A stretch of 64,000 bases of DNA from Methanosarcina acetivorans C2A. Its GTDB lineage: Archaea; Halobacteriota; Methanosarcinia; Methanosarcinales; Methanosarcinaceae. The notes below the pieces were generated by a model. It saw only the letters and a list, made by a program, of their open reading frames with translations, was not told the DNA's origin and ran no database searches. The position numbers and the translations under genes are program-made. The stretch lies in the NCBI RefSeq assembly GCF_000007345.1, contig NC_003552.1, forward strand, positions 5,518,001 to 5,582,000. The letters are read 5' to 3'. Every line of letters starts with the position of its first letter. Position 1 is the stretch's first letter. Of the stretch, positions 13,640 to 27,766 are shown piece after piece.

Positions 13640-13683
13640 TAGTCAACCTCTTTATACTCATGTTTTTACTTTTATTTCATTTG

Positions 13684-14712
13684 TGTTTTATCCCGAAATT
13701 ATTTCGCGCTAAATATGTCGGTTGTAATCCCTTATCTTTTGTGAAACTTAATGGAAAAAAGATACGTTGGATCATTGCTCAAAAATCGAAAGGTGAATCT
13801 ACCTCGACGATAGCTGAGATCCAGGGGATCTCAGCCCGTCGAGTTCAGCAGATCTACAAAGAATACGTTGAAACTGGTCAGCTTCCTCAAGTTGGCATTA
13901 ATCTTGGAAGACCAAAGAACCCCTTATCCTCCTCTGATCAGGAATTGATTGACCAAACTTACTCTGATTATAAGTTTGGAGCCTGTTACCTTGAGATTCT
14001 CATCGAAGGCAAATATAATCGTAAGATATCTCATAACAGAATCCATAACTACCTACTTAGCATGGACCTTGCCAAGGAAAACCGAAAAAAGAAACAGAGA
14101 AGAAAATGGTGTAGATACGAACGCGAACACAGCATGTCTGCTGCACACATCGATTGGCATGAGAATCCCCTGTTAGGACTTCAAGTCTGTGCCATTCTTG
14201 ATGATTCATCAAGAATGATAATTGCAGGTGGAGAGTACGTTCATTGCAACACGGAGAACACCATTAAAGTGATTGATGAACTTGTCAAAGAGTACTGGGA
14301 CATATACCCTTTAAGAGAGCTCATTATGGATCATGGAAGTGAATTCGGGGCTCACAGGATTAATAAGGATGGTTCATGGGATAGTGACTTTAAAAGATGC
14401 ATTGAAGAACTTGGAATCAAACCAATACTTGCAAGGGTAAGACATCCTCAGACAAACGGAAAAATAGAGAAATGGTTCGATACATATCAAAGGTTTAGAG
14501 GAGAGTTTGAATCATTTGAAGAATTCGTACAGTGGTATAACAAGAGGCCACATGGAGCTTTGAAACTTGAACAGTTAGAATCGCCACAGGAAGCATTCTG
14601 GAATAGATTACCAGTTGAGGCAAAGTTCAGAATAGGAGTGAGATTGTTTGGGTGGTGAAAACATGGACAAGAGGAAAAAAGTTTCAAAGCGAAATTATTT
14701 CAGGACAAAACA
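13684..14712 (+). mobile_element. Intact IS481-family-like insertion sequence
   Basis: A 1029-bp element. The left end is TGTTTTATCCCGAAATTATT (13684 on) and the right end, read inward, is TGTTTTGTCCTGAAATAATT; 20 of 24 terminal bases match. It is flanked by identical 15-bp direct repeats CTTTTATTTCATTTG (13669-13683 and 14713-14727), read as a target-site duplication. One complete transposase gene fills it. Perfect target repeats suggest a fairly recent insertion. Confidence 0.9.
13741..14658 (+). CDS. IS481-family-like transposase
   Basis: About 305 residues from the GTG at 13741. The N-terminal half has helix-turn-helix domains (STSTIAEIQGISARRVQQIY). The C-terminal half is an integrase-core DDE domain: D in AHIDWHENPL, D in LIMDHGSEFG and E in PQTNGKIEKW, followed by YNKRPHGAL. 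The frame is open back to an ATG at 13660, but that codon lies outside the left inverted repeat and so cannot be native. The gene is intact. Confidence 0.88.
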   Translation: MKLNGKKIRWIIAQKSKGESTSTIAEIQGISARRVQQIYKEYVETGQLPQVGINLGRPKNPLSSSDQELIDQTYSDYKFGACYLEILIEGKYNRKISHNRIHNYLLSMDLAKENRKKKQRRKWCRYEREHSMSAAHIDWHENPLLGLQVCAILDDSSRMIIAGGEYVHCNTENTIKVIDELVKEYWDIYPLRELIMDHGSEFGAHRINKDGSWDSDFKRCIEELGIKPILARVRHPQTNGKIEKWFDTYQRFRGEFESFEEFVQWYNKRPHGALKLEQLESPQEAFWNRLPVEAKFRIGVRLFGW

Positions 14713-15071: not shown

Positions 15072-15458
15072 TTAGTCTCCGTCGATGCAGAAGTTTCCTT
15101 GCGTATTTTTTAAGAATATGCCAAGGATTTCTTCCTTACAGCTATTCCTGCAGCCCGGCACAAGAACTATTATTTTTTCAACCGGCTCGTAAATCTTTAT
15201 TTTTCTTCCCCTCTGGCTCCATTTAACCTCTGAAACTCTTATCATACCTGCATCTAAAAGGGAATCAAGATTGTATTTGAGAGTGCTTAAGCCCAAACTG
15301 AGTTTTTCCGCAAGCTCACCTGCTGACATATCCTTAGTTTCCAGAAGCTTCAGGATTTTTAGAGAATTTGTATTAGAAAGAGTCTGTACCAGTTTTCGAG
15401 AATCTTCCGAAAGAAATAGAATTTCCAAATTTTTATCTGAACAATCCTCTTCTAGCAT
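15072..15458 (-). CDS. ArsR-type winged-helix transcription regulator (paralogue)
   Basis: 128 residues, a paralogue of the regulator at 8705-9112. The DNA-binding region runs from SRKLVQTLSNTNSLKILKLL through MSAGELAEKLSLGLSTLKYN to a wing with SEVKWSQRGRKIKIYEPVEK. The tail has cysteines (GCRNSCKEE, NFCIDGD). It is divergent from the helix-turn-helix gene at 15711 that heads the GWCP array, and the 252-bp gap between them carries both promoters. Control of the array by this protein is possible but unproven. Confidence 0.8.
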   Translation of the reverse strand: MLEEDCSDKNLEILFLSEDSRKLVQTLSNTNSLKILKLLETKDMSAGELAEKLSLGLSTLKYNLDSLLDAGMIRVSEVKWSQRGRKIKIYEPVEKIIVLVPGCRNSCKEEILGIFLKNTQGNFCIDGD

Positions 15459-15671: not shown

Positions 15672-15690
15672 ATCGAAAACTATATATAGT
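15672..15690 (+). promoter_or_regulatory. BRE/TATA promoter of the GWCP array
   Basis: ATCGAAAACTATATATAGT is a strong archaeal BRE plus TATA box. Its centre is about 25 bases before the ATG at 15711, so the transcript would begin at or next to the start codon. That would make it leaderless, in keeping with the absence of a Shine-Dalgarno. Confidence 0.65.
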
Positions 15691-15710
15691 CAACATTCAC
15701 ATGTTTACTT

Positions 15711-16166
15711 ATGTTCCTTCCGGCAGGTGAAAAACAGTTTGAATTCTGGGTTCTACGCCGAAACGGACTCCCGAACATCAATATTGCAAAGCATTTCGGG
15801 GTCTCCAGGCAGGCAGTCTCGCGAGCCCTCCTCAGTATGGATAAACGTATAGAAGAGACTCTGCTTGAGATGGCCGGGGCAAACAGGATAGAAGTGGAGA
15901 AACTAGACTCAAAGAAAGGAATCCTCTTTGGAAGATCAATTCCTTTCAAAGCCAACGCAATAATCTTTGTCTCGGCAAAACACGGGATGCAGGTCTGGTA
16001 CGAACATGAAGGAGAATGTGGGTCCTGCGAGAGGTATAGGGAATGTATCGAACTCCTCTGGGACTTTGCAGAAGAAATGCAGCTTAAACTTCAGAGTACG
16101 GACGACCCCACAAAGATTGCAGATGAATTGTTTGGGAAATTGAAAGAACTGGTGGAACAGGCCTGA
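15711..16166 (+). CDS. Helix-turn-helix regulator heading the GWCP array
   Basis: 151 residues. The N-terminal helix-turn-helix is QFEFWVLRRNGLPNINIAKH followed by FGVSRQAVSRALLSMDKRI, which looks like a sigma-70 region 4 or Tfx-type fold. The middle is an alpha/beta segment (FKANAIIFVSAKHGMQVWYE). A cysteine motif, CGSCERYREC, could bind metal or a redox cluster. The family was not identified with certainty. It ends 34 bases before the first of 13 paralogous membrane-protein genes on the same strand, so it is probably their regulator. Confidence 0.7.
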   Translation: MFLPAGEKQFEFWVLRRNGLPNINIAKHFGVSRQAVSRALLSMDKRIEETLLEMAGANRIEVEKLDSKKGILFGRSIPFKANAIIFVSAKHGMQVWYEHEGECGSCERYRECIELLWDFAEEMQLKLQSTDDPTKIADELFGKLKELVEQA

Positions 16167-16200
16167 CTTAAGACAGGTGAAATTGAAGGAAGGGTAAACG

Positions 16201-16809
16201 ATGGATGTATTCATAAAAAGTATCAGGAAACTGATGGGATGGTGTCCTAATGCTAAAGCACTTGAAACCAGGCATTCCATCTGCCCTGAATATCTGGAAG
16301 CTGATAACCAATCCAGGGGAAAAGATGCCGGAAATAATCCCATTTTACCATCTGGCTGGTGGAACAAACGTCATAATAGATCATTGATAGCTTCCTCCGT
16401 GTTTACTATCTTTTCCTTATATTGGATTACATTCCAGGGAGAATCTCTCAAAAATGAAGCTTTTATACTGGGGTTAATAATCGGAATTATTTTAAATCCG
16501 CTTCTTTGCATCTGGAACTGGCGTTTCCTGGATAAAATAAAAAACTCAAACAAAAAAGTCCGGACAAAAAATAAATTGATGACTATAGCTGGAATACTGG
16601 GCCTTACAACACTGCTTATAGAATCTTCATCACGTGGAGGGGAATTCGTTTTAACGTTCAGTTTGACTTGTGCTTCCGGTTTTTGTTTGACAGCTTTCCT
16701 GTATTACCTTACGGATACATACTGGGAAAAGAAAAACAAAAAAATTGTGCTTCTGGAAGGGTATTACGCACCAGAGATCTACGTTATAAATAAGGATGCG
16801 GAACGATGA
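16201..16809 (+). CDS. GWCP-motif (DUF1673-like) membrane protein 1
   Basis: 202 residues; function unknown. It has a cytoplasmic N-terminus with KLMGWCPNAK (about 10-19), a polar region, four membrane helices (about 62-80, 86-105, 126-142 and 150-170) and a short tail that begins TYWEKKNKKIV. From memory the family is DUF1673, known mainly from Methanosarcina. The sequence GGAAGGGTAAACG before the ATG is a fair ribosome site. The stop overlaps the next start (ATGA). Its first 60 residues are nearly the same as in the next gene, with a second cysteine in SICPEYLEADNQ. Confidence 0.72.
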   Translation: MDVFIKSIRKLMGWCPNAKALETRHSICPEYLEADNQSRGKDAGNNPILPSGWWNKRHNRSLIASSVFTIFSLYWITFQGESLKNEAFILGLIIGIILNPLLCIWNWRFLDKIKNSNKKVRTKNKLMTIAGILGLTTLLIESSSRGGEFVLTFSLTCASGFCLTAFLYYLTDTYWEKKNKKIVLLEGYYAPEIYVINKDAER

Positions 16810-17525
16810 CCATGACCCTGGAATATATCAAAAAACTGATGGGATGGTGTCCTAATGCTAAAGCATTTGAAACTAGGCGTTCCGTCTGCCCTGAATATCT
16901 GGAAGCTGATAACCAATCCAGGGGAAAAGATGCCGGGAATTCTCCGGTTCCATCTCCCGGCTGGTGGAACAAACGTCATAACAGGTCATTAATAGATTCC
17001 TCCGTGTTTACTCTCTTTTCCATATATTTGATCGGATTCCAGGGAGTTAGCCCCGTGGATGAACGTTTCATGTCCGGGGTAATTTTAGGAATTATTTTTA
17101 ACCTGAGCCTCTGTATCCGGACCTGGAGTTATCTGGATGACATAAAGAACTCAAGCAGACAAAGAAAAATTATAACTGTATCGTCAAAAGAGAAAATAAT
17201 AAAGTTAATAAATATAATAATAGCATTGGTAATACTGTATCTCTTATTTTCACAATTTAATTGGGGATTCGTTTTGTTTTTAATCTCTGCTTTTTGTTTG
17301 ATAGCTTTGTTGTACTACTTTAAGTTTGATTTCTCTCCCATGGTGTTTCTTTTTTACTTAGGTTCACCCAACACGGTATTTTCATCTGGCATAGCCGGCA
17401 TTTGTTTGACAGCTTTTCTGTATTACCTTACGGATGTATACTGGGAAAAGAGGAATGGAAAAATAGTGCTTGTATATGACCGTAAAATGTCAGAGATCTG
17501 TATCGTAAATGCGGAAGCGGAGTAA
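16806..17525 (+). CDS. GWCP-motif (DUF1673-like) membrane protein 2
   Basis: 239 residues, about 35 longer than most members. The N-terminal 60 residues nearly repeat gene 1. The extra length comes from a second version of the last membrane helix: ISAFCLIALLYYFKFDF is followed 30 residues later by GICLTAFLYYLTDVYWEKRN, which looks like an internal duplication. This could change the number of membrane passes from four to five. Five bases separate its stop from the next start. Confidence 0.7.
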   Translation: MTMTLEYIKKLMGWCPNAKAFETRRSVCPEYLEADNQSRGKDAGNSPVPSPGWWNKRHNRSLIDSSVFTLFSIYLIGFQGVSPVDERFMSGVILGIIFNLSLCIRTWSYLDDIKNSSRQRKIITVSSKEKIIKLINIIIALVILYLLFSQFNWGFVLFLISAFCLIALLYYFKFDFSPMVFLFYLGSPNTVFSSGIAGICLTAFLYYLTDVYWEKRNGKIVLVYDRKMSEICIVNAEAE

Positions 17526-17530
17526 CGACC

Positions 17531-18145
17531 ATGACCCTGAAATATATCAAAAAAATCATGGGATGGTGCCCTAATGCAAAAAAACTTGAAACCGGACCCC
17601 GAATTAGCTCTTCTAATTTTGAAGCATATGGTCGATCGAGAGAAGAAAAATCAAGAAGTCCGGAGGTTTCAGGCCCGCATTCCAGGCTTTATACCCAACT
17701 CCTTCTGCTACCAATGTTCTTTGCTCCTGTTTATATAAACCTATTTCAAAAAGGTATAAACACAGAAGCTTTCCTTCTTGGCCTTTTACTTTCTTTACCG
17801 ATCTATTTGCTCGGTTGGAAAAAGCAGATGCATCAATACGACGCTGCAAAAGAAAAAACTGTTATTTCCCCTTCCTTCAGAAAAACATTCTTCTGTGTTT
17901 TCTTACTCCCATTTTTAGGTTTAACTTTGCTCATAGCTTTCTTGCCTTATATCTCGTCTCATGCAGCTTATCTTTTTAACGACCAGATACTGTACTCTTT
18001 CTTTTCAGGAACTATGATTCTGATGTGGGGCTTCTATTTCCAGCTAATTTACTGGGAGAGGAAAAACCATGTAAAAATGTATGTGAAGAGAGAGAAGGGA
18101 CAGCACAAACTGTATGTCCTTGGAGAAAAGGGGGGAGAACCATAA
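17531..18145 (+). CDS. GWCP-motif (DUF1673-like) membrane protein 3
   Basis: 204 residues with KIMGWCPNAKKLETG at the start, then helices around 55-74, 82-97, 120-140 and 155-175. The family motif WKKQMHQYDAA follows helix 2, and LIYWERKNHVKMYVKREKG forms the tail. It is close to gene 5 (18748-19377) in both protein and DNA, including the entire 3' end, so one is a recent copy of the other or they have undergone gene conversion. The last codons overlap gene 4 at CCATAA. Confidence 0.72.
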   Translation: MTLKYIKKIMGWCPNAKKLETGPRISSSNFEAYGRSREEKSRSPEVSGPHSRLYTQLLLLPMFFAPVYINLFQKGINTEAFLLGLLLSLPIYLLGWKKQMHQYDAAKEKTVISPSFRKTFFCVFLLPFLGLTLLIAFLPYISSHAAYLFNDQILYSFFSGTMILMWGFYFQLIYWERKNHVKMYVKREKGQHKLYVLGEKGGEP

Positions 18146-18747
18146 GCCGGGAATCCAGATACATAAAAAAACTGATGGGATGGTGCCCGAATGCCAGAGC
18201 ACATGAAACCAGGAAGTACGTTGATCTTGAGCGTTTTGACTTAGATACACCAGCTGGAGCAGGAGGAGAAGGCGGAGATATGAAAAATCCGGGACGGCTA
18301 CGGAAAGCAAGTACTCGAATTCTTCTATATGGCATTTTTTTTACATCCGTGTGTTTTCTGGTACTTAATCAAACAGGCATAAACCCGATCTTTTTACTTG
18401 CCGGATTTTTCACTGCCCTCGTTCATGTCGCATTTTACTGGAAAATTCAAATGGAAAAATACGATGCCCTGGTAAAGCAATCAATTATTGAACATTTGGA
18501 CAAGAAAAAAAGTATTATACTGACGATCCCGTATGCGCTTTATTTTGTGCTATTTTTCCTTAGTATCATTGTTGGTCGCGAACATTCCCCGCAAGCAATG
18601 ATTTCATTTGGTACGGGTTTAATGGTTGGAATTTGGCTTGGCTATTTCCAAATAATATATTGGGAGAAAATTAATCACGTAACGATTTACTTCGACAAAG
18701 GTTATGGAATGGGGAAAAAGTCGTATATCGTGAGGGAGGGAGAATAA
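18142..18747 (+). CDS. GWCP-motif (DUF1673-like) membrane protein 4, unusual start
   Basis: About 201 residues. The homologous gene 6 starts with GTG overlapping the stop of the gene before it. Here the same position reads ATA, overlapping TAA. No ATG, GTG or TTG occurs in frame outside gene 3 until the ATG at 18175 (in LMGWCP), which would remove the conserved lysines. It may use ATA, initiate late, or be silenced. The rest is intact: four helices, WKIQMEKYDAL after helix 2 and IIYWEKINHVTIYFDKGYG near the end. It is closest to genes 7-9. Confidence 0.6.
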   Translation: MSRESRYIKKLMGWCPNARAHETRKYVDLERFDLDTPAGAGGEGGDMKNPGRLRKASTRILLYGIFFTSVCFLVLNQTGINPIFLLAGFFTALVHVAFYWKIQMEKYDALVKQSIIEHLDKKKSIILTIPYALYFVLFFLSIIVGREHSPQAMISFGTGLMVGIWLGYFQIIYWEKINHVTIYFDKGYGMGKKSYIVREGE

Positions 18748-19377
18748 ATGCCCGTTAAGATCCTTGTTTGTGACCAGATCAAGAAGTTTATGGGATGGTG
18801 CCCTAATGCAAAAAAACTTGAAACCGGACCCCGAATCAGCTCTGCTGATTTTGAAGCATATGGTCGATCGGGAGAAGAAAAAGCAAGAAGTCCGGAGGTT
18901 CTGGGCTCCCATTCCAGGCTTTATACCCAACTCCTCCTGCTACCAATGTTCTTTACTCCTATTTATATAAACATATTTCAAAAAGGTATAAACTTAGAGG
19001 CTTTCCTTCTAGGTCTTTCACTTTCTTTACTTACCTATTTGCTCGGCTGGAAAAAGCAGATGCATCAATACGACGCCGCGAAAGAAAAACCTGTTATTTC
19101 TCCTTTTTTCAGAAAAATATTCTTCTACGTTTTCTTATTCCCATTTTTAAGTTTGGGTTTACTCATAGCTTTCTTACCTTATATCTCGTCTCATGCAGCT
19201 TATCTTTTTAACGATCAGGTACTGTATTCTTTCTTTTCAGGAACTATGATTCTGATGTGGGGCTTCTATTTCCAGCTAATTTACTGGGAGAGGAAAAACC
19301 ATGTAAAAATGTATATGAAAAGAGAGAAGGGACAGCACAAACTGTATGTCCTTGGAGAAAAGGGGGGAGAAATGTGA
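18748..19377 (+). CDS. GWCP-motif (DUF1673-like) membrane protein 5
   Basis: 209 residues; starts at the base after the gene 4 stop (TAAATG). It begins MPVKILVCDQIKKFMGWCPN, a leader shared with gene 8, but from KKLETGPRISS onward it is almost a copy of gene 3. The join suggests recombination between subtypes just before the GWCP motif. Helices and the WERKNHVKMYMKREKG tail are as in gene 3. Confidence 0.72.
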   Translation: MPVKILVCDQIKKFMGWCPNAKKLETGPRISSADFEAYGRSGEEKARSPEVLGSHSRLYTQLLLLPMFFTPIYINIFQKGINLEAFLLGLSLSLLTYLLGWKKQMHQYDAAKEKPVISPFFRKIFFYVFLFPFLSLGLLIAFLPYISSHAAYLFNDQVLYSFFSGTMILMWGFYFQLIYWERKNHVKMYMKREKGQHKLYVLGEKGGEM

Positions 19378-20006
19378 ACCTGGAACCCAGATCCATAAAA
19401 AAGCTGATGGGATGGTGCCCAAATGTAAAAACTGCTGAAGTGGGATCCCGGATTAGCCCTGCCAATTTTGAAGCATATGCTCAATCCGGAGGAGAAAAAG
19501 CCAGGAATCAGGGGGTTCCGAACCGATTTTCCAGGCTCTTCTCCAGGTTTGACGTTAGAATTCTTCTGCCAACACTATTCTTTACTTTTTACCTCATAAA
19601 TTTGCTATCCCAAAAGGGTATAAACTTAGAGGCTTTCCTTCTAGGCCTTTCACTTTCTTTACTTACCTATTTGCTCGGCTGGAAAAAGCAGATGAATAAG
19701 TACGATACCCTGGCAAAAAAACCTGCTGTTGCTCCTTCCTTTAAAAAAACATTCATCTGGGTTCTCTCAGTCATAATTTTGGGCTTAATTTTGTTCATGG
19801 TTTTACTGTCTCATCTATCTCATATGCTCCATTTTCTTAACGCTCAGTCAATGTATTCTTTTATTGCAGGAGCTTGGATACTGATGTGGGGAAGTTATTT
19901 TCAGCTAATTTACTGGGAAAAGAAAAAACAAATGAAAATTTATATAAAAAGTGAAAAGGGGTTCCAAAAAATGTATGCCTCTGAAGAAAAGGAGGAGAAA
20001 CTGTGA
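19374..20006 (+). CDS. GWCP-motif (DUF1673-like) membrane protein 6
   Basis: 210 residues from a GTG that overlaps the stop of gene 5 (GTGA). The frame is open upstream, but that part only re-reads gene 5. It has KLMGWCPNVKTAEVGSRISP, then four helices. The stretch GINLEAFLLGLSLSLLTYLL with WKKQM is identical to gene 5, while the N-terminus and the tail differ, so it is a mosaic. The tail is IKSEKGFQKMYASEEKEEK. Confidence 0.72.
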   Translation: MNLEPRSIKKLMGWCPNVKTAEVGSRISPANFEAYAQSGGEKARNQGVPNRFSRLFSRFDVRILLPTLFFTFYLINLLSQKGINLEAFLLGLSLSLLTYLLGWKKQMNKYDTLAKKPAVAPSFKKTFIWVLSVIILGLILFMVLLSHLSHMLHFLNAQSMYSFIAGAWILMWGSYFQLIYWEKKKQMKIYIKSEKGFQKMYASEEKEEKL

Positions 20007-20614
20007 ACCTGAATACCGAATACATTAAAAAATTGATAGGTTGGTGCCCGAATGTCAGAGCATCTGAAGCCAGACGAAATGTTAGCTTTGAGAATTTTAA
20101 TTCTGATATTCATGAAAGAGCAGGGAAAGAAAATAGAGATCCGAAAAATTTGGGATGGTTCCGGAAAGCAAGTACGCGACCCCTTCTCATTTATACTTTT
20201 TTTACTCTCATTTATCTCATGGTATTTCATCAAATAGGCATAAGCCCGATCTTTTTACTTGCCGGATCTTTCAGTTCTCTATTTCTCAGCATATTTTTCT
20301 GGAAGAAACAAATGCAAAAATATGACGAATTGATAAAAAAACCAGTTACTGAGTGTTCAAATAAAAGAAAAATGAGTCTATTCGCGACCATATTTGCAGT
20401 TTATTTTGTAATGTCTTACATAATGTCTTACCTTGATGCTAATGCTGGGGAACTTGCCGTTCAAGCAATGATTTCATTCATTGGAGGTTTCTTGGTCAGT
20501 ATGTGGCTTGAATATCTTCAGATACTTTACTGGGAGAGGAAGAACCGTAAAGTGATTTATATTGACAAAGGCTACGGATGGAAGAAATCCTACATAATTC
20601 TGGAGAGAGAATAA
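20003..20614 (+). CDS. GWCP-motif (DUF1673-like) membrane protein 7
   Basis: 203 residues; its GTG start overlaps the gene 6 stop. It opens with KKLIGWCPNVRASEARRNVS, followed by a charged segment (HERAGKENRDPKNLGWFRKA) shared with genes 4, 8 and 9. Four helices follow, with WKKQMQKYDELIKKP after helix 2 and LYWERKNRKVIYIDKGYGWK near the end. Gene 8 starts at the next base (TAAATG). Confidence 0.72.
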   Translation: MNLNTEYIKKLIGWCPNVRASEARRNVSFENFNSDIHERAGKENRDPKNLGWFRKASTRPLLIYTFFTLIYLMVFHQIGISPIFLLAGSFSSLFLSIFFWKKQMQKYDELIKKPVTECSNKRKMSLFATIFAVYFVMSYIMSYLDANAGELAVQAMISFIGGFLVSMWLEYLQILYWERKNRKVIYIDKGYGWKKSYIILERE

Positions 20615-21238
20615 ATGCCCGCTAAGATCTTTGTTTTTGACCAGATCAAGAAGTTGATGGGTTGGTGTCCGAATGCCAGAGCACATGAAGCCAGACAGCA
20701 TTCTAACCTTGAAAATTTTGCTTCTGAGCTCCCAGATAGAGCAAGTGGAGAAAATGAAGGTCTGAAAAATCCCGGATGGCTCCGGAAAACAAATACTTAT
20801 ACTCTCCTGATTAACACTTTTCTTTCACTTGCATATTTTCTGGTAATCAATCAGTTGGGTATAAATCTAACTCTGAGTGCAAATCTAATCCTTTTACTTT
20901 CCGGATTTTTCATTGCCCTATTTTTCGTTATATTTGACTGGAAGAAACAAATGCAGAGATATGACGCTCTCGTAAAACATCCGGTAATCGACTATTCAGA
21001 TAAAAAATTGTATTACATACTTGCAGCTGTACTTTTCATTTTGATATATAATTATTATATCGAAAAACAGGGACTTGATCTGCAAGCGGTGTTTTCATTT
21101 GTGGGAGGTCTCGTGGTCGGAATATGGCCTTTCTATTTCCAGCTAATATATTGGGAGAAAAAGAACCACAAAACGATTTATTTCGACAAAAGCTATGGGA
21201 CATGGAAGAACTCATACATTATTCGGGAGAGAAAATAA
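20615..21238 (+). CDS. GWCP-motif (DUF1673-like) membrane protein 8
   Basis: 207 residues, starting directly after the gene 7 stop. It has KKLMGWCPNARAHEARQHSN, four predicted helices, a short insert in the loop between helices 1 and 2 (INLTLSANLILLL), WKKQMQRYDALVKHPVI, and IYWEKKNHKTIYFDKSYG before the end SYIIRERK. The first codons match those of gene 5, and its 3' end nearly matches gene 9. Confidence 0.72.
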   Translation: MPAKIFVFDQIKKLMGWCPNARAHEARQHSNLENFASELPDRASGENEGLKNPGWLRKTNTYTLLINTFLSLAYFLVINQLGINLTLSANLILLLSGFFIALFFVIFDWKKQMQRYDALVKHPVIDYSDKKLYYILAAVLFILIYNYYIEKQGLDLQAVFSFVGGLVVGIWPFYFQLIYWEKKNHKTIYFDKSYGTWKNSYIIRERK

Positions 21239-21865
21239 ATGCCTGCCAAAAATGTTGCTTTTGAAAATATCAAGAAGCTGATAGGCTGGTGTCCGAATGC
21301 CAGATCACATGAAACTCAACATTCCCTTCATCCCGAATATTTTGATGCGAATATCCCGACCAGAGGTGGAGATACCGGAAACTCGGAAAATTTAAGCTGG
21401 TTCCGGAAATCGAGTAGCAAAATTCTCTTAGTTGATTCTTTTCTTACACTTACATATCTTCTGGTAATGACCCAATTGGGCGTAAACATAGTGACTTTAC
21501 TCGCCGGATTTTTCCTCTCCTTAACTTTTTTCATTTTTAGCTGGAAGAAGCAGATGCAAAGGTACGATACTCTCGCACAAAAACTCGTTCTTGATGATTC
21601 CAACAAGAAAATTCTGTATAAAAGACTTTTTCGAATAATAACTCTGATTTTCTATGCCACACTTTTTTATTGGATTTTTGCAGGAGATCTGGAAAGAAAT
21701 TTTCTCATGAAAGGAACCCTTTCTTTCTTTGCAGGCGGACTCGCCTTCATGTGGCTTGGCTATCTTCAGATACTATATTGGGAGAAAAAGAATCACAAAA
21801 CGATCTATTTCGATAAAGGGTATGGAAAGTGGAAAAATTCGTATATCATTCGGGAGAGAAAATAA
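21239..21865 (+). CDS. GWCP-motif (DUF1673-like) membrane protein 9
   Basis: 208 residues, starting directly after the gene 8 stop. It has KKLIGWCPNARSHETQHSLH, a segment DANIPTRGGDTGNSENLSWF, four helices, WKKQMQRYDTLAQKL and LYWEKKNHKTIYFDKGYG with the terminal SYIIRERK. It is the last member of the classic four-helix type; the genes after it keep the GWCP motif but change the rest. Confidence 0.72.
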   Translation: MPAKNVAFENIKKLIGWCPNARSHETQHSLHPEYFDANIPTRGGDTGNSENLSWFRKSSSKILLVDSFLTLTYLLVMTQLGVNIVTLLAGFFLSLTFFIFSWKKQMQRYDTLAQKLVLDDSNKKILYKRLFRIITLIFYATLFYWIFAGDLERNFLMKGTLSFFAGGLAFMWLGYLQILYWEKKNHKTIYFDKGYGKWKNSYIIRERK

Positions 21866-22600
21866 ATGCCTGCCAAAGCTGCTTCATTTGAGCATATAAA
21901 AAAACTGATGGGATGGTGCCCAGTTTGCGGAAAAATGGCATCGGGAAGAAGACAATTCTGTTCCTTTGCAAATACGACCCCAGTTTCCGAAAAAATAGGA
22001 AATCTCCTCGAGTTCCGAACTTCAAATGTACTTTTTCCTGCAAACACAACTCTGTTCCTGATATATTTCATGATAAGTTTCAGGCTGCTCCTTTCCCTTA
22101 AGTATCCGGAGGAAATTCTCTTCTTCCTGACAGGTATCTTTTTGTTTAACATTTCTTTTTACTTCCTAATTCTCAAAACCTTCGACACAGCAGTTCTTGT
22201 AAATAAATTAGGGGTACATCTGCAGGCTTTCAGACTGAAGAAATTTGAAATTCCTTACGAAGAAATTGAAAGCATAATATTACACAGGCTTGAAAAACGT
22301 TCAAAGAAAGCATCTATTCTCCTGGGAATTGGGGGCATTGCTATTTGCGGGTTCGTGGCCTACATAGCTGTAGGAAAAGGAGACTGGAATGTACCCATAC
22401 TACTGATCTCCCTTCTCCCCCTCCTACTTTTTGCAGAGCGGAAACAAAGAACTCAGTTCCGGGACCTGAATACGCAGCTGTACATCAAGACCAGACACAA
22501 AAAGTGGTATGAATGGACTCCTTACTATTCCTTAGTCACGGATGAAGCCTCGGCTGAAGAGCTGAAATCGTCCATAGAAAGGCACTGCGAGGGTATATGA
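21866..22600 (+). CDS. GWCP N-terminus on a different membrane domain (protein 10)
   Basis: 244 residues. The N-terminus is KKLMGWCPVCGKMASGRRQF with CxxC and a third cysteine nearby, possibly a metal site. After helix 1-2 (about 55-110) comes a soluble section, LGVHLQAFRLKKFEIPYEEI followed by ESIILHRLEKRS, resembling a bacterial PH-like domain (inference). Two more helices follow (about 152-190), then a tail DLNTQLYIKTRHKKWYEW and DEASAEELKSSIERHC. Two partial copies of this tail lie downstream, showing that the gene was once repeated. Confidence 0.65.
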   Translation: MPAKAASFEHIKKLMGWCPVCGKMASGRRQFCSFANTTPVSEKIGNLLEFRTSNVLFPANTTLFLIYFMISFRLLLSLKYPEEILFFLTGIFLFNISFYFLILKTFDTAVLVNKLGVHLQAFRLKKFEIPYEEIESIILHRLEKRSKKASILLGIGGIAICGFVAYIAVGKGDWNVPILLISLLPLLLFAERKQRTQFRDLNTQLYIKTRHKKWYEWTPYYSLVTDEASAEELKSSIERHCEGI

Positions 22601-22601
22601 A

Positions 22602-23339
22602 ATGGCTTTTATTGAATCTATCCGAAAAATGATGGGCTGGTGCCCGATGAAAAATTCCCTCGGGAAGGGGTGGCAGGAAGGCAACTACCCGTTCTTTAAA
22701 ATGGAAAATGGAAGTATTCAATTGGACCCCTCTCCTGTAGACCTGAGGAGAAACAAAATCCTTAAGGTGCGATATAGTCTCTTTGACAGGTGGACTGTAA
22801 TAATTGCTATTTTCACATTGATAATCTCCCTGCTTCTATGGATATATATTCCTGAAGACTCCTTTTTGATCATATTTTCAGGTCTTATTATGTTCCTTAT
22901 ACCTCTCATATTATTTCTTAACAGACCCAATATTGCTGAAGTAACATCCGGAAAAATCATAATCAAGAAACCTATGCGTAAACCACTTGTGATCGAAAAA
23001 GAAGACGTCATGCAAATATCGGTAACAAGGACAGAAAATCATTACCTGCGCTGGCTGGTCCGCTCAATTTACGTTGTTTTTATACCACTTTACTTTGTAA
23101 AAGAGATAATGCCAACTTTGCAGGAAATGGAGAGGTCATTTCCGGAATACATTGATCTCAGCCTATTTCTGTTGAATCTTACAGTATTAGTAATGTTCCT
23201 TGTGATGTTTTATAACTTCGAACTCATGGCGCCCTATCAGCGGATTCTTAAAGTTACTACACGTTCAAACCTGGAACTAAGTTTCTTTACCGATGATCCT
23301 GAAAAACTCACAGGAATTCTCAAAAAAGAAGAGGAGTAA
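22602..23339 (+). CDS. GWCP-motif membrane protein 11 (second type)
   Basis: 245 residues, starting one base after the stop of gene 10. The motif is RKMMGWCPMKNSLGKGWQEG, then a beta-like stretch (FFKMENGSIQLDPSP), two close helices (about 60-105), a PH-like segment (VTSGKIIIKKPMRKPLVIEK then EDVMQISVTRTENH), and two more helices (about 148-165 and 190-212). The tail is YQRILKVTTRSNLELSFFTD and so on. Genes 12 and 13 are paralogues. The function is unknown. Confidence 0.65.
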   Translation: MAFIESIRKMMGWCPMKNSLGKGWQEGNYPFFKMENGSIQLDPSPVDLRRNKILKVRYSLFDRWTVIIAIFTLIISLLLWIYIPEDSFLIIFSGLIMFLIPLILFLNRPNIAEVTSGKIIIKKPMRKPLVIEKEDVMQISVTRTENHYLRWLVRSIYVVFIPLYFVKEIMPTLQEMERSFPEYIDLSLFLLNLTVLVMFLVMFYNFELMAPYQRILKVTTRSNLELSFFTDDPEKLTGILKKEEE

Positions 23340-23344
23340 GAGAT

Positions 23345-23494
23345 AAAGGAAAAAACCTACATCGGAATCTGAATACGCAGCTGATATTGAAACCAGCCCC
23401 TGTTGTTGAGGGACCCTTATCATTCCATAATCACAGAGAAACCTTAGCTGAAGAGACCAAATCGCTTATCGCAAGGCAATATGAGGGTATATGA
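23345..23494 (+). pseudogene. Remnant of a gene 10-type C-terminus
   Basis: Reading around the breaks gives NLNTQLILKPAP, then LAEETKSLIARQYEGI and a stop, matching the end of gene 10 (DLNTQLYIKT, AEELKSSIERHCEGI). Everything before it is missing. It shows that genes 10 and 11 were duplicated as a pair and the first copy then lost. Confidence 0.65.
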
Positions 23495-23495
23495 A

Positions 23496-24242
23496 ATGGC
23501 TTTTATCGAATCTATCCGAAAAATGATGGGCTGGTGCCCGATGAAAAATTCCCTTGGGAAAAGAAAGCAGGAAAACAACTACCCTGATTTTAAATTCGAA
23601 AATGGGATTGTTGAGTTGGGTTCGTCTCCCGCAGACCTTCAGGGAAATAGAATTTTTAAGGTGCATGTAAACCTTTTTCCAGAATGGTGGGCTGTAATAA
23701 TCATTCTCTTTGCATTAATAATCTCCTTACTTCTATGGACATATAGTCCCGAAAGCTCTTTTTTAATTATCCTTTCAGAGATTATTCTGTATTTACCCCT
23801 CATAGTGCTATTACTTTTCCATCATCCCAGTACTGTTACGGTAATGCCTGAAAAAATCATAGTCAAAAGGCTTATACGTAAGCCAGTTGTGATTGAAAAG
23901 AAGGATATCATACAAATATCGGTGACAAGGAACGAAAACCGTTCCCTGCGCTGGCCAATGCGCTTAGTTTTTCTTGTTACCCTTCCTATTATACTGCTTC
24001 GCACCGTAGAAAGGATTGTAAGGGATTTGCAACTGGAAGCAGCAGCCTCAGCCTCCGCAAAACTCAGCTTATTTCTTTCACAGTCCTTGACAGTGACATA
24101 TCTTCTTGTGTTTTTTTATTACTTTGAGATACGAGCGCCTTATCAGCAGATTCTTAAAATGACCACATACTCAAACCTGAAACTTTGGATATATACCGAA
24201 AAACCGGAAGAGCTTACAAAGCTTCTAAACTTTGGAATCTGA
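23496..24242 (+). CDS. GWCP-motif membrane protein 12 (second type)
   Basis: 248 residues from the ATG at 23496, chosen because MAFIESIRKMMGWCPMKNSL matches gene 11 exactly; the frame also opens at 23481. The layout is as in gene 11, with two helix pairs around a PH-like segment (VMPEKIIVKRLIRKPVVIEK then KDIIQISVTRNENR). The last residues KLLNFGI come from fusion with a second remnant of the gene 10 tail, which supplies the stop, so the native end has been replaced. Confidence 0.65.
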   Translation: MAFIESIRKMMGWCPMKNSLGKRKQENNYPDFKFENGIVELGSSPADLQGNRIFKVHVNLFPEWWAVIIILFALIISLLLWTYSPESSFLIILSEIILYLPLIVLLLFHHPSTVTVMPEKIIVKRLIRKPVVIEKKDIIQISVTRNENRSLRWPMRLVFLVTLPIILLRTVERIVRDLQLEAAASASAKLSLFLSQSLTVTYLLVFFYYFEIRAPYQQILKMTTYSNLKLWIYTEKPEELTKLLNFGI

Positions 24243-24331
24243 ATACGAAACTATACATCAAAACCAAAAAAGTAATCACGGACGAAGCCTCAGCTGCAGA
24301 GCTTAAATCATCTATTGAAAGGCATTTGTGA
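24232..24331 (+). pseudogene. Second remnant of a gene 10-type C-terminus
   Basis: The stretch after and across the gene 12 stop reads NLNTKLYIKTKK, then VITDEASAAELKSSIERHL and a stop. It is an internally deleted copy of the end of gene 10 (DLNTQLYIKT, TDEASAEELKSSIERHC). Confidence 0.7.
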
Positions 24332-24342
24332 AGGCGCATGAA

Positions 24343-25094
24343 ATGATTTTTGTGAAATACTTCAGAAAATTGATGGGCTGGTGCCCGAATGCAAAAAATC
24401 CCTCCAAAAAGGGTGGCAGGAAGGCAACTACCCGTTCTTTAAAATGGAAAATGGAAGTATTCAATTGAACCCCTCTCCCATGGACACGCCCGAAAGTAGA
24501 ATTCCTAAGGTGCAGGTTAGCCTCTTTGACTTCTGGGCTCTAATAATTACTGTTTTCGTATCAATAATCTCTTTTATAACCTCTTTGCTTGTATGGGCCT
24601 ATATTCCTGAAGATTCTTTTTTAATTATATTTTCAGGCTTTGTTATTTTCCTTATACCTCTCATATTCTTTCTTAATCGCCTCAATACCGTCGAAGTAAT
24701 GTCCGGAAAAATCACAATCAAGAGACCTCTACGTAAGCCAGTTGTTGTCGAAAAAGAGGATATCAGGCAAATTTCGGTAACAAGGAACGAAAATCATTCC
24801 CTGCGCTGGTTGATCCGCTTATTTTATGTTATTTTTTTACCATTCTACCTTGGGGAGGGGATAATTAAAGCTTTACGGAATTTGGAAAGATCATTTCCAG
24901 ACTATATTGTACTCAGTCTATTTCTGGTGCGTCTTGCGGGAGTAGCATTTTTCCTTGTGCTATATTACAATGTCGAAATCTTAGCGCCTTATCAGCAGAC
25001 CCTTAAAATTACTACGAATTCAAACCTGAATCTTCAATTCTTCACCGAAGAACCGGAAAAGCTTGTCACTATTCTCAAAAACGAGACTAAATAA
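24343..25094 (+). pseudogene. GWCP-motif membrane protein 13, frameshifted
   Basis: The start at 24343 reads MIFVKYFRKLMGWCPNAKNP, then leaves frame. From about 24408 the matching sequence GWQEGNYPFFKMENGSIQL continues one frame over to a normal end at 25094. Compared with gene 11, one base is missing in the A5G3 run at 24406-24413. The remaining 220 residues keep two helix pairs and the PH-like segment (MSGKITIKRPLRKPVVVEKE). It could be inactive, or expressed only by slippage on the run. Confidence 0.65.
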
Positions 25095-25177: not shown

Positions 25178-25651
25178 TCATTTTAGACTTTTAATCAGCT
25201 CCTGAAAGCGCTTTTCGTCCACTATCTTCTGGGTATTGAGCATCCGCTTAAACTCGTCAACACTTTTTTCCCCACCTTTCCCCTCAAGTTTATCTTTCAG
25301 TTCTATTGCCGCTCGCAAAAGTCCGACCGCCTCTTCATAAAGGGCTTCTGCCTCAGTCTGTGTGAGTTCTTCGGTTTCAAGCAGTTCTTCGTCTGCTTTT
25401 GCTCTTTCCTTCAATTTTGGGATAAGAGCCCTGATTTCGGCAGCTTCATCAGGTCCTGGTAATTCCTCTTCTCCAAGAGCCCTGACAATATCCCGGAGCC
25501 TGTACTCCTCTCCATCGATTTCCACACATTCGGGAATTTTCTTCCCGGCCCAGGCAAACTCACTCCTGAGGCTCCAGAGGAGTTTGTTCCGCTCCTGATA
25601 ACTGATATATTCGGCATCTGTCCCGTTTGTCCTGTTTTCATCTTTCAGCAT
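25178..25651 (-). CDS. DUF5788-like protein
   Basis: 157 residues, acidic, mostly helical. YISYQERNKLLWSLRSEFAW followed by AGKKIPECVEIDGEEYRLRD resembles a domain seen in halophilic and methanogenic archaea (DUF5788, from memory). The C-terminal half is a coiled-coil-like helix pair (LTQTEAEALYEEAVGLLRAA). It is a paralogue of the protein at 27287-27766. The two bracket pyrBI on the same strand; the function is unknown. Confidence 0.62.
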   Translation of the reverse strand: MLKDENRTNGTDAEYISYQERNKLLWSLRSEFAWAGKKIPECVEIDGEEYRLRDIVRALGEEELPGPDEAAEIRALIPKLKERAKADEELLETEELTQTEAEALYEEAVGLLRAAIELKDKLEGKGGEKSVDEFKRMLNTQKIVDEKRFQELIKSLK

Positions 25652-27286: not shown

Positions 27287-27766
27287 TTACTTAGATACAT
27301 TCTTTATGAATTCAAGCCAGAGCTTGGCATCCCTAACCCTCTGGCCGACAAATTGCTCCTGAAAGCGTTTTGAACTTTCTTTAAGAGCCCCGCTTTCGAT
27401 TTCTTTAAGATCCGTTATTGCACGGAGCAGACCTGCAGTCTCATGGTAGAGGGATTCTGCCTGCTCGTGTGTAAGAGGTTTCTCTTCAAGCTCCTTTTCG
27501 TCCTCTTGCTCTTTTGCCGAAATAATATTGATGCATTTATCTATTCTGGATTTTTCGGTCTCGGTAAGGGTATCTTTCTGGATTAACTCCCAGACATAGT
27601 CATGAAGCTGGTATTTTTCTCCCTCGAACTCCACATAATCCGGGATATGCTGTCCCACCCAGAAGAGACGGCAATGTAGAGCACCCAGTAGCTCTCTGCG
27701 TTCCGCATCAGTAATATATTTTTGAGAAAAATTTTCTTCCTCGTTTGTTTTAAGGCTTTTTTCCAT
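27287..27766 (-). CDS. DUF5788-like protein (paralogue)
   Basis: 159 residues, aligning along its whole length with the 25178-25651 protein: ITDAERRELLGALHCRLFWV, GQHIPDYVEFEGEKYQLHDY, and the C-terminal LTHEQAESLYHETAGLLRAI. It is very acidic in the middle (EKEQEDEKELEE-type run). It lies 105 bases upstream of pyrB on the same strand, so a shared transcript is possible. No function is known to me. Confidence 0.62.
   Translation of the reverse strand: MEKSLKTNEEENFSQKYITDAERRELLGALHCRLFWVGQHIPDYVEFEGEKYQLHDYVWELIQKDTLTETEKSRIDKCINIISAKEQEDEKELEEKPLTHEQAESLYHETAGLLRAITDLKEIESGALKESSKRFQEQFVGQRVRDAKLWLEFIKNVSK

Follow-up and report, generated by a model that had tools for sequence, protein, structure and literature searches.

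Organization of the locus

The array described here lies on the + strand of a 64,000-nucleotide window of the Methanosarcina acetivorans C2A genome, to which all coordinates refer. It begins with the gene of a helix-turn-helix (HTH) regulator of 151 amino acids (15711..16166), followed within 16201-25094 by thirteen genes with a GWCP motif, all on the + strand as well. Most neighbours in the row abut, share 4 bp or are separated by at most 5 bp, in line with the sequence-only reading, except for three wider gaps between the HTH gene and gene 1 (34 bp), genes 11 and 12 (156 bp) and genes 12 and 13 (100 bp). The site of the array, between dapB and the pyrI-pyrB region, is fixed in Methanosarcina. 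Every DUF1673 copy of the 5,751,492-bp genome resides here, and the DNA pattern of the GWCP peptide, hereafter the tag, matches 13 times genome-wide (reversed control, 0).

Genes 1-9 encode the tag followed by a four-helix DUF1673 body: gene 1 (16201..16809, 227 bits), gene 2 (16806..17525, 236 bits, overlapping gene 1 by 4 bp), gene 3 (17531..18145, 228 bits), gene 4 (18142..18747), gene 5 (18748..19377, 246 bits), genes 6 (19374..20006) and 7 (20003..20614), both with GTG starts and 4-bp overlaps with the respective preceding gene, gene 8 (20615..21238, 249 bits) and gene 9 (21239..21865, 256 bits). Gene 4 carries ATA (ccATAAgcc) at the expected start codon and has no ATG, GTG or TTG there, while its nearest relative (L052) has GTG at this place. 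Gene 10 (21866..22600) comprises the tag helix, an unstructured linker and a predicted PH-fold domain split by two transmembrane hairpins. Gene 11 (22602..23339) combines the tag with a membrane body whose PH-like part is related to gene 10, and gene 12 (23496..24242) is of the same type. Membership in DUF1673 was defined by the Pfam gathering score of PF07895 (30.4 bits). The family name given in the sequence-only reading holds for genes 1-9 (167-269 bits), gene 11 (150), gene 12 (147) and the body of gene 13 (70), whereas gene 10 matches with its N-terminal part only and stays below the cut-off (23.5 bits).

In the gap between genes 11 and 12 (23340..23495) lies a degenerate remnant of the gene 10 tail, left by tandem duplication. 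From a 227-nt repeat (22544-22770 and 23438-23664, 79% identity) it is evident that a unit consisting of the gene 10 tail and gene 11 was duplicated. In gene 13 the tag segment (24343..24463, MIFVKYFRKLMGWCPNAK..., ATG at 24343) is out of frame with the body ORF of gene 11 type (24381..25094), and the gene is likely a frameshifted copy. The statement that all genes keep the motif is not correct, given the out-of-frame tag of gene 13 and the missing standard start of gene 4.

The HTH regulator and its putative operator

The regulator combines an HTH resembling sigma region 4, NarL and Tfx with a long helix and four strands, and harbors an invariant His-Cys3 arrangement (H99-x3-C103-x2-C106-x5-C112). 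Fold comparison yields a best Z-score of 7.2 with many HTH families tied, Z ~6 for the sigma-region-4 type and Z 7.1 for the Tfx structure 8hno_B (2.5 Å over 61 residues). In sequence, residues 7-51 match the Tfx family TIGR00721 with 16 bits, where the curated cut-off is 60.25 bits. No sigma region 2 model occurs among the listed matches of the 151-residue protein, in which the single HTH is the only recognisable domain. A fold search with the C-terminal domain harboring the His-Cys3 site gave no match, a kind of null result that shows little.

A TATA box, TATATATA, is located at 15681..15688 (+ strand), and a box of this kind is conserved some 30 nt ahead of the HTH start codon, both among Methanosarcina and in most of the other loci shown. 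With the ATG at 15711, the leaderless start proposed earlier for the HTH gene is plausible. Between TATA box and start codon lies the inverted repeat GTCAACATTCACATGTTTAC (15689..15708), which ends 2 nt before the start codon, has the consensus GTCAAC-N8-GTTGAC and is the putative operator of the HTH protein. Its strict form precedes 121 of 144 HTH genes (shuffled sequences, 0), and in 140/143 loci the repeat keeps the same distance from the HTH start. The conserved putative operator overlaps the regulator's own promoter in nearly all 144 loci, and the locus is probably an autoregulated repressor module. The gaps between the HTH gene and gene 1, genes 11 and 12, and genes 12 and 13 showed nothing resembling a TATA box. 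The view of one unit behind one regulator is supported. A bacterial promoter scan remained at background level, and no Rfam element was matched in the window.

In three Methanosarcina genomes the same putative operator, together with a TATA box, also stands upstream of LolA/RseB-like lipoprotein genes that occupy a common site; one such promoter is at genome position 5324827. In Methanoperedens such genes adjoin tag loci. The Pfam matches of LolA-like proteins are broad, and lipoproteins of this kind are common in Methanosarcina.

A portable N-terminal tag on unrelated membrane bodies

Sequence comparison identifies the GWCP peptide as a portable tag at the N-terminus of unrelated membrane bodies, a feature newly recognised here. 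In 42 otherwise unrelated tagged proteins the residues G, W, C and P are the only invariant part, and in the predicted model of gene 10 the tag forms a short helix ahead of a disordered linker. Pairwise dN/dS (the pairs are not independent) amounts to 0.08 in the tag, compared with 0.34 in the body and 0.64 in the linker; the tag is under strong purifying selection and the body under moderate purifying selection, on average not under positive selection. The tag is also present where a single tagged gene follows the HTH gene (L058, L101-L104), and its main function therefore cannot consist in linking the members of an array. The neighbour that stays constant is the HTH regulator. The common N-terminus with a putative docking role, postulated before for differing bodies, is supported as far as the shared tag is concerned.

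In methanogens and their relatives the tagged bodies comprise DUF1673 four-helix, PH-fold, AglB-core, SdpI/DUF1648, Yip1 and flippase types. With the tag removed, four-helix and PH types exhibit no profile similarity, whereas within-type controls reach E-values of 1e-18 to 1e-54. The gene 10 model (pLDDT 79) superposes on PH, FERM-F3 and PTB domains with Z-scores of 10.6-12.0 over 82-106 residues, and all 50 rows listed belong to these folds, as defined by a seven-stranded barrel with a C-terminal helix. Together with the relatedness of the gene 11-13 type to gene 10, this bears out the suspected PH-like bodies of genes 10-13. By sequence, no bacterial PH family (bPH) is among the listed Pfam matches of gene 10, and 3 of 51 gene-11-type proteins match bPH_5 weakly (best E 0.0034, short of the curated bPH cut-off). 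In other genomes, the tagged proteins L081, L182, L203, L206 and L208 exceed the Pfam cut-offs for SdpI/YfhL or Yip1; none of the window proteins matches these families, and both types are absent from Methanosarcina arrays. The 601-residue tagged protein L131, considered as a full-length AglB, turned out to be a fusion of two tagged units.

Distribution of regulator and tag

Among 238 genomes of the class, the HTH gene is found in 81/82 with the tag pattern versus 16/156 without (Fisher 6e-46, kinship ignored), and most of these 16 carry tags missed by the pattern (e.g. L101-L104). Conversely, the pattern occurs in 1 of 141 genomes devoid of the HTH gene. Of 31 Methanosarcina genomes, 26 possess both and five neither. 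A clear tag gene begins within about 60 nt after 128 of 144 distinct HTH genes, most commonly with a 4-bp overlap; tagged genes away from any HTH gene exist as well (L189-L192), though the HTH gene is present in those genomes.

The proposed comparison of array sizes across strains reveals 1 to 12 tagged ORFs over 22 Methanosarcina loci; a single genome has as many as 16 matches to DUF1673. In Methanosarcina the set probably grew by tandem duplication. The earlier description as a diversifying system suits the rapid gain and loss of array members, but not the tag, on which purifying selection is strong. A mobile or viral origin was rejected: plasmid and phage records searched with one array protein gave no match, IMG/VR contained no relative of the HTH protein, and the locus is fixed.

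Co-divergence in a paralogous module

Twelve HTH paralogs form one clade (support 100/100) whose module adjoins or accompanies the standard module in some genomes. They share the recognition-helix changes S32T and A35G, their putative operator reads GTAAA[TC]-N8-ATTTAC in 12/12, and their tag is GLC[RP]K, while the tag tryptophan is invariant in 385 distinct tags outside this clade. Recognition helix, putative operator and tag of the paralog clade have diverged together, a pattern that could also be produced by whole-locus duplication and shared descent. The strongest association of an HTH position with the tag is R108E with a basic residue after CP (16/16 versus 1/113). It corresponds to one or two events (AU test for a single origin, p 0.40), and the independent-pairs test supports no pair of HTH and tag positions. 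Residue-level co-variation between R108 and the tag is retained as a lead.

Proposed mechanism and alternatives

Module, tag, co-occurrence, operator and paralog co-divergence are evident from the sequences themselves, while repeat binding by the HTH protein, repression, docking, sensing and an envelope role are inferred. We consider the chances about even that the locus serves envelope protection as an autoregulated module, with the membrane proteins docking via the tag on its regulator. The HTH protein would bind the repeat located between TATA box and start codon, thereby repressing its own leaderless transcript, membrane genes included. In each membrane protein a flexible linker in the cytoplasm would present the same amphipathic helix with the GWCP peptide, and the tag would dock on the C-terminal domain of the regulator near the His-Cys3 site. 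Stress sensed, or damage repaired, by the membrane bodies would alter the amount of regulator held at the membrane, which in turn would set how much of the unit is made. Any body could gain entry to one regulator by carrying the tag. The tagged partners may work in an anti-sigma-like manner, by directly binding the regulator; adjacency, co-occurrence and co-divergence bear on this indirectly. Arguments for the proposed reading include the SdpI/DUF1648, Yip1 and flippase bodies among the tagged proteins, the membership of the Bacillus counterparts of SdpI and Yip1 in the sigma-W regulon, and the putative operator upstream of LolA/RseB-like lipoprotein genes. The reading does not account for the ten or so near-identical partners in Methanosarcina.

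Alternatively, the HTH protein could regulate via DNA only, the tag serving sorting, assembly or membrane topology through some other cell component, and the association could reflect co-inheritance of the locus. There are many reasons for operons to unite a regulator with its targets, some tagged genes lie apart from the HTH gene, and the independent-pairs test lends no support to residue-level co-variation. Against this, tag and HTH paralog clade have diverged jointly, although the tag tryptophan is invariant in the 385 other distinct tags, and where a genome has lost either HTH or tag, its counterpart is nearly always missing as well. If the tag were a general sorting element, one would expect it on unlinked membrane proteins and in HTH-less genomes, of which a single one has the pattern. 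We regard this explanation as unlikely.

The array could also be a fast-changing immunity repertoire that shields the cell from toxins or membrane-active peptides released by competitors; the tag would then provide common regulation or localisation, and the regulator link would be secondary. The turnover of members and the presence of pseudogenes and partial copies would be in line with such a role, as would the SdpI/YfhL and Yip1 bodies, whose Bacillus relatives protect against the SDP toxin. These types are, however, missing from Methanosarcina arrays, the average selection on the bodies is purifying, the one array protein searched has no plasmid or phage counterpart, and 48 four-helix proteins gave no match to PADLOC defence models at E 0.01, which makes the proposal rather improbable. 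The hetero-oligomeric membrane complex joined via the tag, the main idea of the sequence-only reading, is the least probable of the three: thirteen members share one unit and the order of types (four-helix, gene 10 type, gene 11 type) is kept in most Methanosarcina arrays, but single-tag loci are common (those given above and several named loci), the tag-sharing bodies have unrelated folds, close species differ between 1 and 12 tagged ORFs, and nothing was found that speaks for such a complex.

Relation to known systems

Of the proteins described here, genes 1-9, 11 and 12 and the body of gene 13 belong to DUF1673 (PF07895; arCOG06827, supercluster SC.00027). Two papers of 2014-15 (PMC4158269, PMC4390880) described the family, its expansion in Methanosarcina and the MGWCP motif; they assigned no function and reported neither a regulator nor an operator nor a connection to other bodies. 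The tag extends to proteins without a DUF1673 body, and the Pfam model mixes four-helix and PH-like bodies that are unrelated once the tag is removed.

With ECF sigma factors, their membrane anti-sigma factors and RseB-type lipoprotein sensors, the module shares a conserved cytoplasmic DNA-binding protein beside membrane genes, putative autoregulation and RseB/LolA-like lipoproteins behind its putative operator; the HTH may by fold be of sigma-region-4 type, with many HTH families tied. It differs in having no sigma region 2 model among its listed matches, in its archaeal transcription, in a repressor-like operator over the start site and in a short, putative N-terminal docking peptide shared by many unrelated membrane bodies. 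Tfx regulators (EnfR, PDB 8hno/8hnp) have a similar N-terminal HTH fold with weak sequence likeness, but the HTH protein scores far below their 60-bit cut-off and its His-Cys3 domain has no match.

Extracytoplasmic signalling in archaea is poorly known, and to our knowledge sigma/anti-sigma pairs are absent there. It is possible, if somewhat less than evenly likely, that a previously undescribed kind of archaeal signalling is at work, in which one conserved metal-site HTH repressor reads the state of the envelope via any tag-bearing membrane protein; partners would be recruited by tag fusion to further bodies (transferase core, flippase, Yip1, SdpI, PH), and joint change of recognition helix, operator and tag would insulate duplicated modules. 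If the tag docks on the regulator, methanogens and their methane-oxidising relatives have a modular equivalent of sigma/anti-sigma systems with many exchangeable inputs, the operator defined here offers a way to chart the regulon of every such genome, and the family, called 'dark matter' in 2014, gains its first testable function. M. acetivorans is genetically tractable, and a paralog pair within one genome constitutes a natural specificity experiment.

YdbS and YdbT of Bacillus are bPH-type proteins. The sigma-W genes yfhLM, yknWXYZ and ydbST resemble the tagged proteins in their SdpI/YfhL and Yip1 bodies and, by fold, in the combination of a PH domain with transmembrane helices; they differ in the missing tag, in other regulation and in that no homology of YdbST to the window proteins was shown. 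YfhL (an SdpI paralog), YknW (Yip1) and YdbST are part of the sigma-W membrane-protection regulon (PMC8144471, PMC4887032). Bodies similar to AglB/STT3 belong to other lineages and are absent from the window array. There, the tagged proteins L076, L096 and L100-L108 carry a WWD-motif domain whose profile matches the C-terminal core of AglB/STT3 structures (3vgp, 1e-5), with one or five transmembrane helices as compared with thirteen and with most of the WWDYG positions changed.

Co-occurrence of the tag and the HTH gene

In 81 of the 82 genomes with the tag pattern, out of 238 genomes of the class, the N-terminal GWCP peptide (the tag) is accompanied by the helix-turn-helix (HTH) gene that heads the M. 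acetivorans array, and a reversed control pattern gave a single match across all 238 genomes together. The association (P = 6e-46, a value ignoring kinship) is also seen inside several genera, where HTH gene and tag appear and disappear jointly. A recognisable tag gene lies directly behind 128 of 144 distinct HTH genes, with a degenerate one behind several more, and the junction is usually a 4-bp overlap. Named records with this module belong to Methanosarcinaceae, Methanoperedenaceae, ANME groups, Methanomicrobiales (Methanoculleus, Methanoregula) and, in one record, to Archaeoglobales.

In genera other than Methanosarcina, the proteins encoded behind this HTH gene share the N-terminus but differ in body, namely AglB/STT3-core-like proteins with one or five helices (profile A1 matches 3vgp at 1e-5 and STT3A at 4e-4), Yip1 (4e-16), SdpI/DUF1648 (down to 1.5e-17) and DUF6159, and in two Methanosarcina genomes a tagged flippase (1e-20) stands behind a second HTH copy. 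BLAST at E 1e-4 sorts the bodies, after trimming of the tag, into at least 11 groups with more than one member. Tag-free profiles of the four-helix, PH-like and AglB-like bodies do not match each other (best 0.001, 34 columns), the exception among such profiles being the gene 10 and gene 11 types (2e-6); as a control, halves of a single body type match each other at 1e-18 to 1e-54. Gly, Trp, Cys and Pro are the sole invariant residues among the 42 most different tagged proteins.

The second HTH copy of the two flippase loci (L089, L090) is about 91% identical to that of the window, and the O-antigen-type flippase fused to the tag adjoins an ABC transporter-like gene. Two GWCP tags are found in single proteins at L131:3816-5621, L155:5160-6158 and L163:5085-6518, which are fusions of two tagged units with the internal tag retained. 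Orphan tagged AglB-core proteins (L191:4314-5576, minus strand, and L192:4895-6157) share the initial MFLPLN with the HTH protein, which would fit a deletion that fused the start of the HTH gene with the tag gene. In Methanoperedens, STT3/AglB-like 11-helix proteins of about 575 residues adjoin the HTH module (L076:10767-12494, L198:3243-4970, L200:1497-3227).

Regulator and putative operator

Among 57 aligned HTH proteins 35 columns are invariant, including H99, C103, C106 and C112, which, judging from the alignment, likely form a metal site. The model (pLDDT 89) comprises the HTH, a long helix, four strands, a Cys loop and two helices. Fold relatives are found only for the N-terminal domain (sigma region 4, NarL/LuxR and Tfx-type HTHs), with Z of 5-7 too weak for a family assignment, and the protein does not classify as TIGR00721 (Tfx).

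Directly after the TATA box and upstream of the HTH start lies an inverted repeat, GTCAAC-N8-GTTGAC, the strict form of which is present at 121 of 144 HTH loci and absent from shuffled copies. In 140 of the 143 loci where a repeat was found, 2 nt separate its end from the start codon. The putative operator at 15689-15708 is the sole match in the window at up to one mismatch; its position over the transcription start suggests repression. Two of the four perfect sites in M. acetivorans have a correctly spaced TATA box, the window locus and a site at genome position 5324827. The latter overlaps the remnant of a lost second HTH copy and precedes four tandem LolA/RseB-like DUF4367 lipoprotein genes (L215:6828-11813). 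The same site precedes LolA/RseB-like genes in two other Methanosarcina genomes (L254, L255), and LolA-like genes adjoin tag loci in Methanoperedens, which links the regulator with the cell envelope.

Divergence of a duplicated module

Twelve HTH paralogs form one fully supported clade, the genomes of which mostly hold the standard module too (e.g. L203, L216, L217, L219). In the region of the recognition helix these paralogs differ by S32T and A35G; their operator reads GTAAA[TC]-N8-ATTTAC in 12 of 12 cases, and all or nearly all of their tags have the form GLC[RP]K. That the operator changes along with the recognition helix is expected; the simultaneous change of the tag at its otherwise invariant Trp is what would be expected were the tag required to recognise its matching regulator. 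Alternatively, tag co-divergence may reflect shared descent of the duplicated locus, the tag interacting with another component that was duplicated as well.

HTH residue 108, adjoining the second Cys, is Glu in the paralog clade as well as in four Methanotrichaceae-like loci, in every case together with Lys or Arg after CP, and Arg in 110 of 113 other loci. As tree tests fit one or two origins of Glu108 alike and an independent-pairs test gave no support for the residue 108-tag association, this link serves only as a lead for mutagenesis.

Proposed mechanism

We consider it the most likely reading, at an even chance, that the tag docks membrane proteins on the HTH regulator, in a manner functionally analogous to anti-sigma factors, within a module that would protect or monitor the cell envelope. 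The envelope role is suggested by the kinds of bodies (SdpI/YfhL, Yip1, flippase, AglB core, PH with transmembrane hairpins), by the lipoprotein operon behind the same operator and by the use of YfhL, YknW and YdbST in the Bacillus sigma-W regulon (PMC8144471, PMC4887032). In the predicted structure of gene 10 the tag forms a short helix, and some 30 disordered residues separate this helix from the first PH strand, a shape that would be suited to docking. The shared docking site proposed in the sequence-only reading gains support, the partner more likely being the regulator than sister proteins.

The array in Methanosarcina

The family itself is already known: in excerpts, PMC4158269, the sole match of a literature search for the MGWCP motif, describes DUF1673 as a group of membrane proteins, marked by this motif, that has expanded in Methanosarcina, and PMC4390880 lists it among the largest superclusters of archaea that have no COG counterpart; these excerpts give no function, regulator or relatives with other bodies. 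No prior description of the portable tag, the constant HTH partner, the operator or the paralog co-divergence was found in a search largely confined to literature outside subscription.

DUF1673 matches, 1 to 16 each, occur in 26 of 31 Methanosarcina genomes, and the HTH gene is likewise missing from all five genomes free of them. Arrays in the fetched loci are headed by this HTH gene (89-97% identity to the window copy) and have DUF5788-pyrI-pyrB downstream. The members are far less alike and vary in number and type, in the order four-helix bodies, gene 10 type, gene 11 type. The dN/dS values, from pairs that share branches, are 0.05 for the HTH protein, 0.34 for the body, 0.64 for the linker behind the tag and 0.08 for the tag, the last being rough because the tag is short and its synonymous divergence (0.70 of sites) near saturation. 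Synonymous divergence is higher in tags than in bodies, and in most arrays the tag of the opening gene reads SIRKLMGWCP irrespective of the body, both hinting at recombination that exchanges tags and bodies.

In the window, TATA box, inverted repeat, HTH gene and 13 tagged genes span 15681-25094 (plus strand) and contain all 13 DUF1673 matches of the genome (5,751,492 bp, one contig). The 13-gene array behind an HTH gene, as originally read, proved sound with small corrections. Its common motif is [E/D]xI[R/K][K/R]LMGWCP; by Pfam scoring genes 1-9 are typical DUF1673 proteins, genes 11-13 match more weakly and gene 10 stays under the cut-off. Two details depart from the original reading: gene 4 lacks a standard start codon at the expected place, with ATA where relatives have ATG or GTG, and a frameshift has probably affected gene 13, a duplicate copy. 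From gene 10 to gene 13, duplicate blocks recurring about every 850-900 bp show tandem duplication that included the gene 10 tail.

Close upstream, an IS-type transposase gene (13660-14658, plus strand; HTH and rve integrase core, Pfam matches from sub-threshold to above cut-off) was not seen at the corresponding position of the other listed Methanosarcina loci. The divergent ArsR-type HTH gene (15072-15458, minus strand) varies across Methanosarcina loci, being present in some, reduced or missing in others. Two DUF5788-like genes (25178-25651 and 27287-27766, minus strand) flank pyrI-pyrB, a pair present in all Methanosarcina loci fetched.
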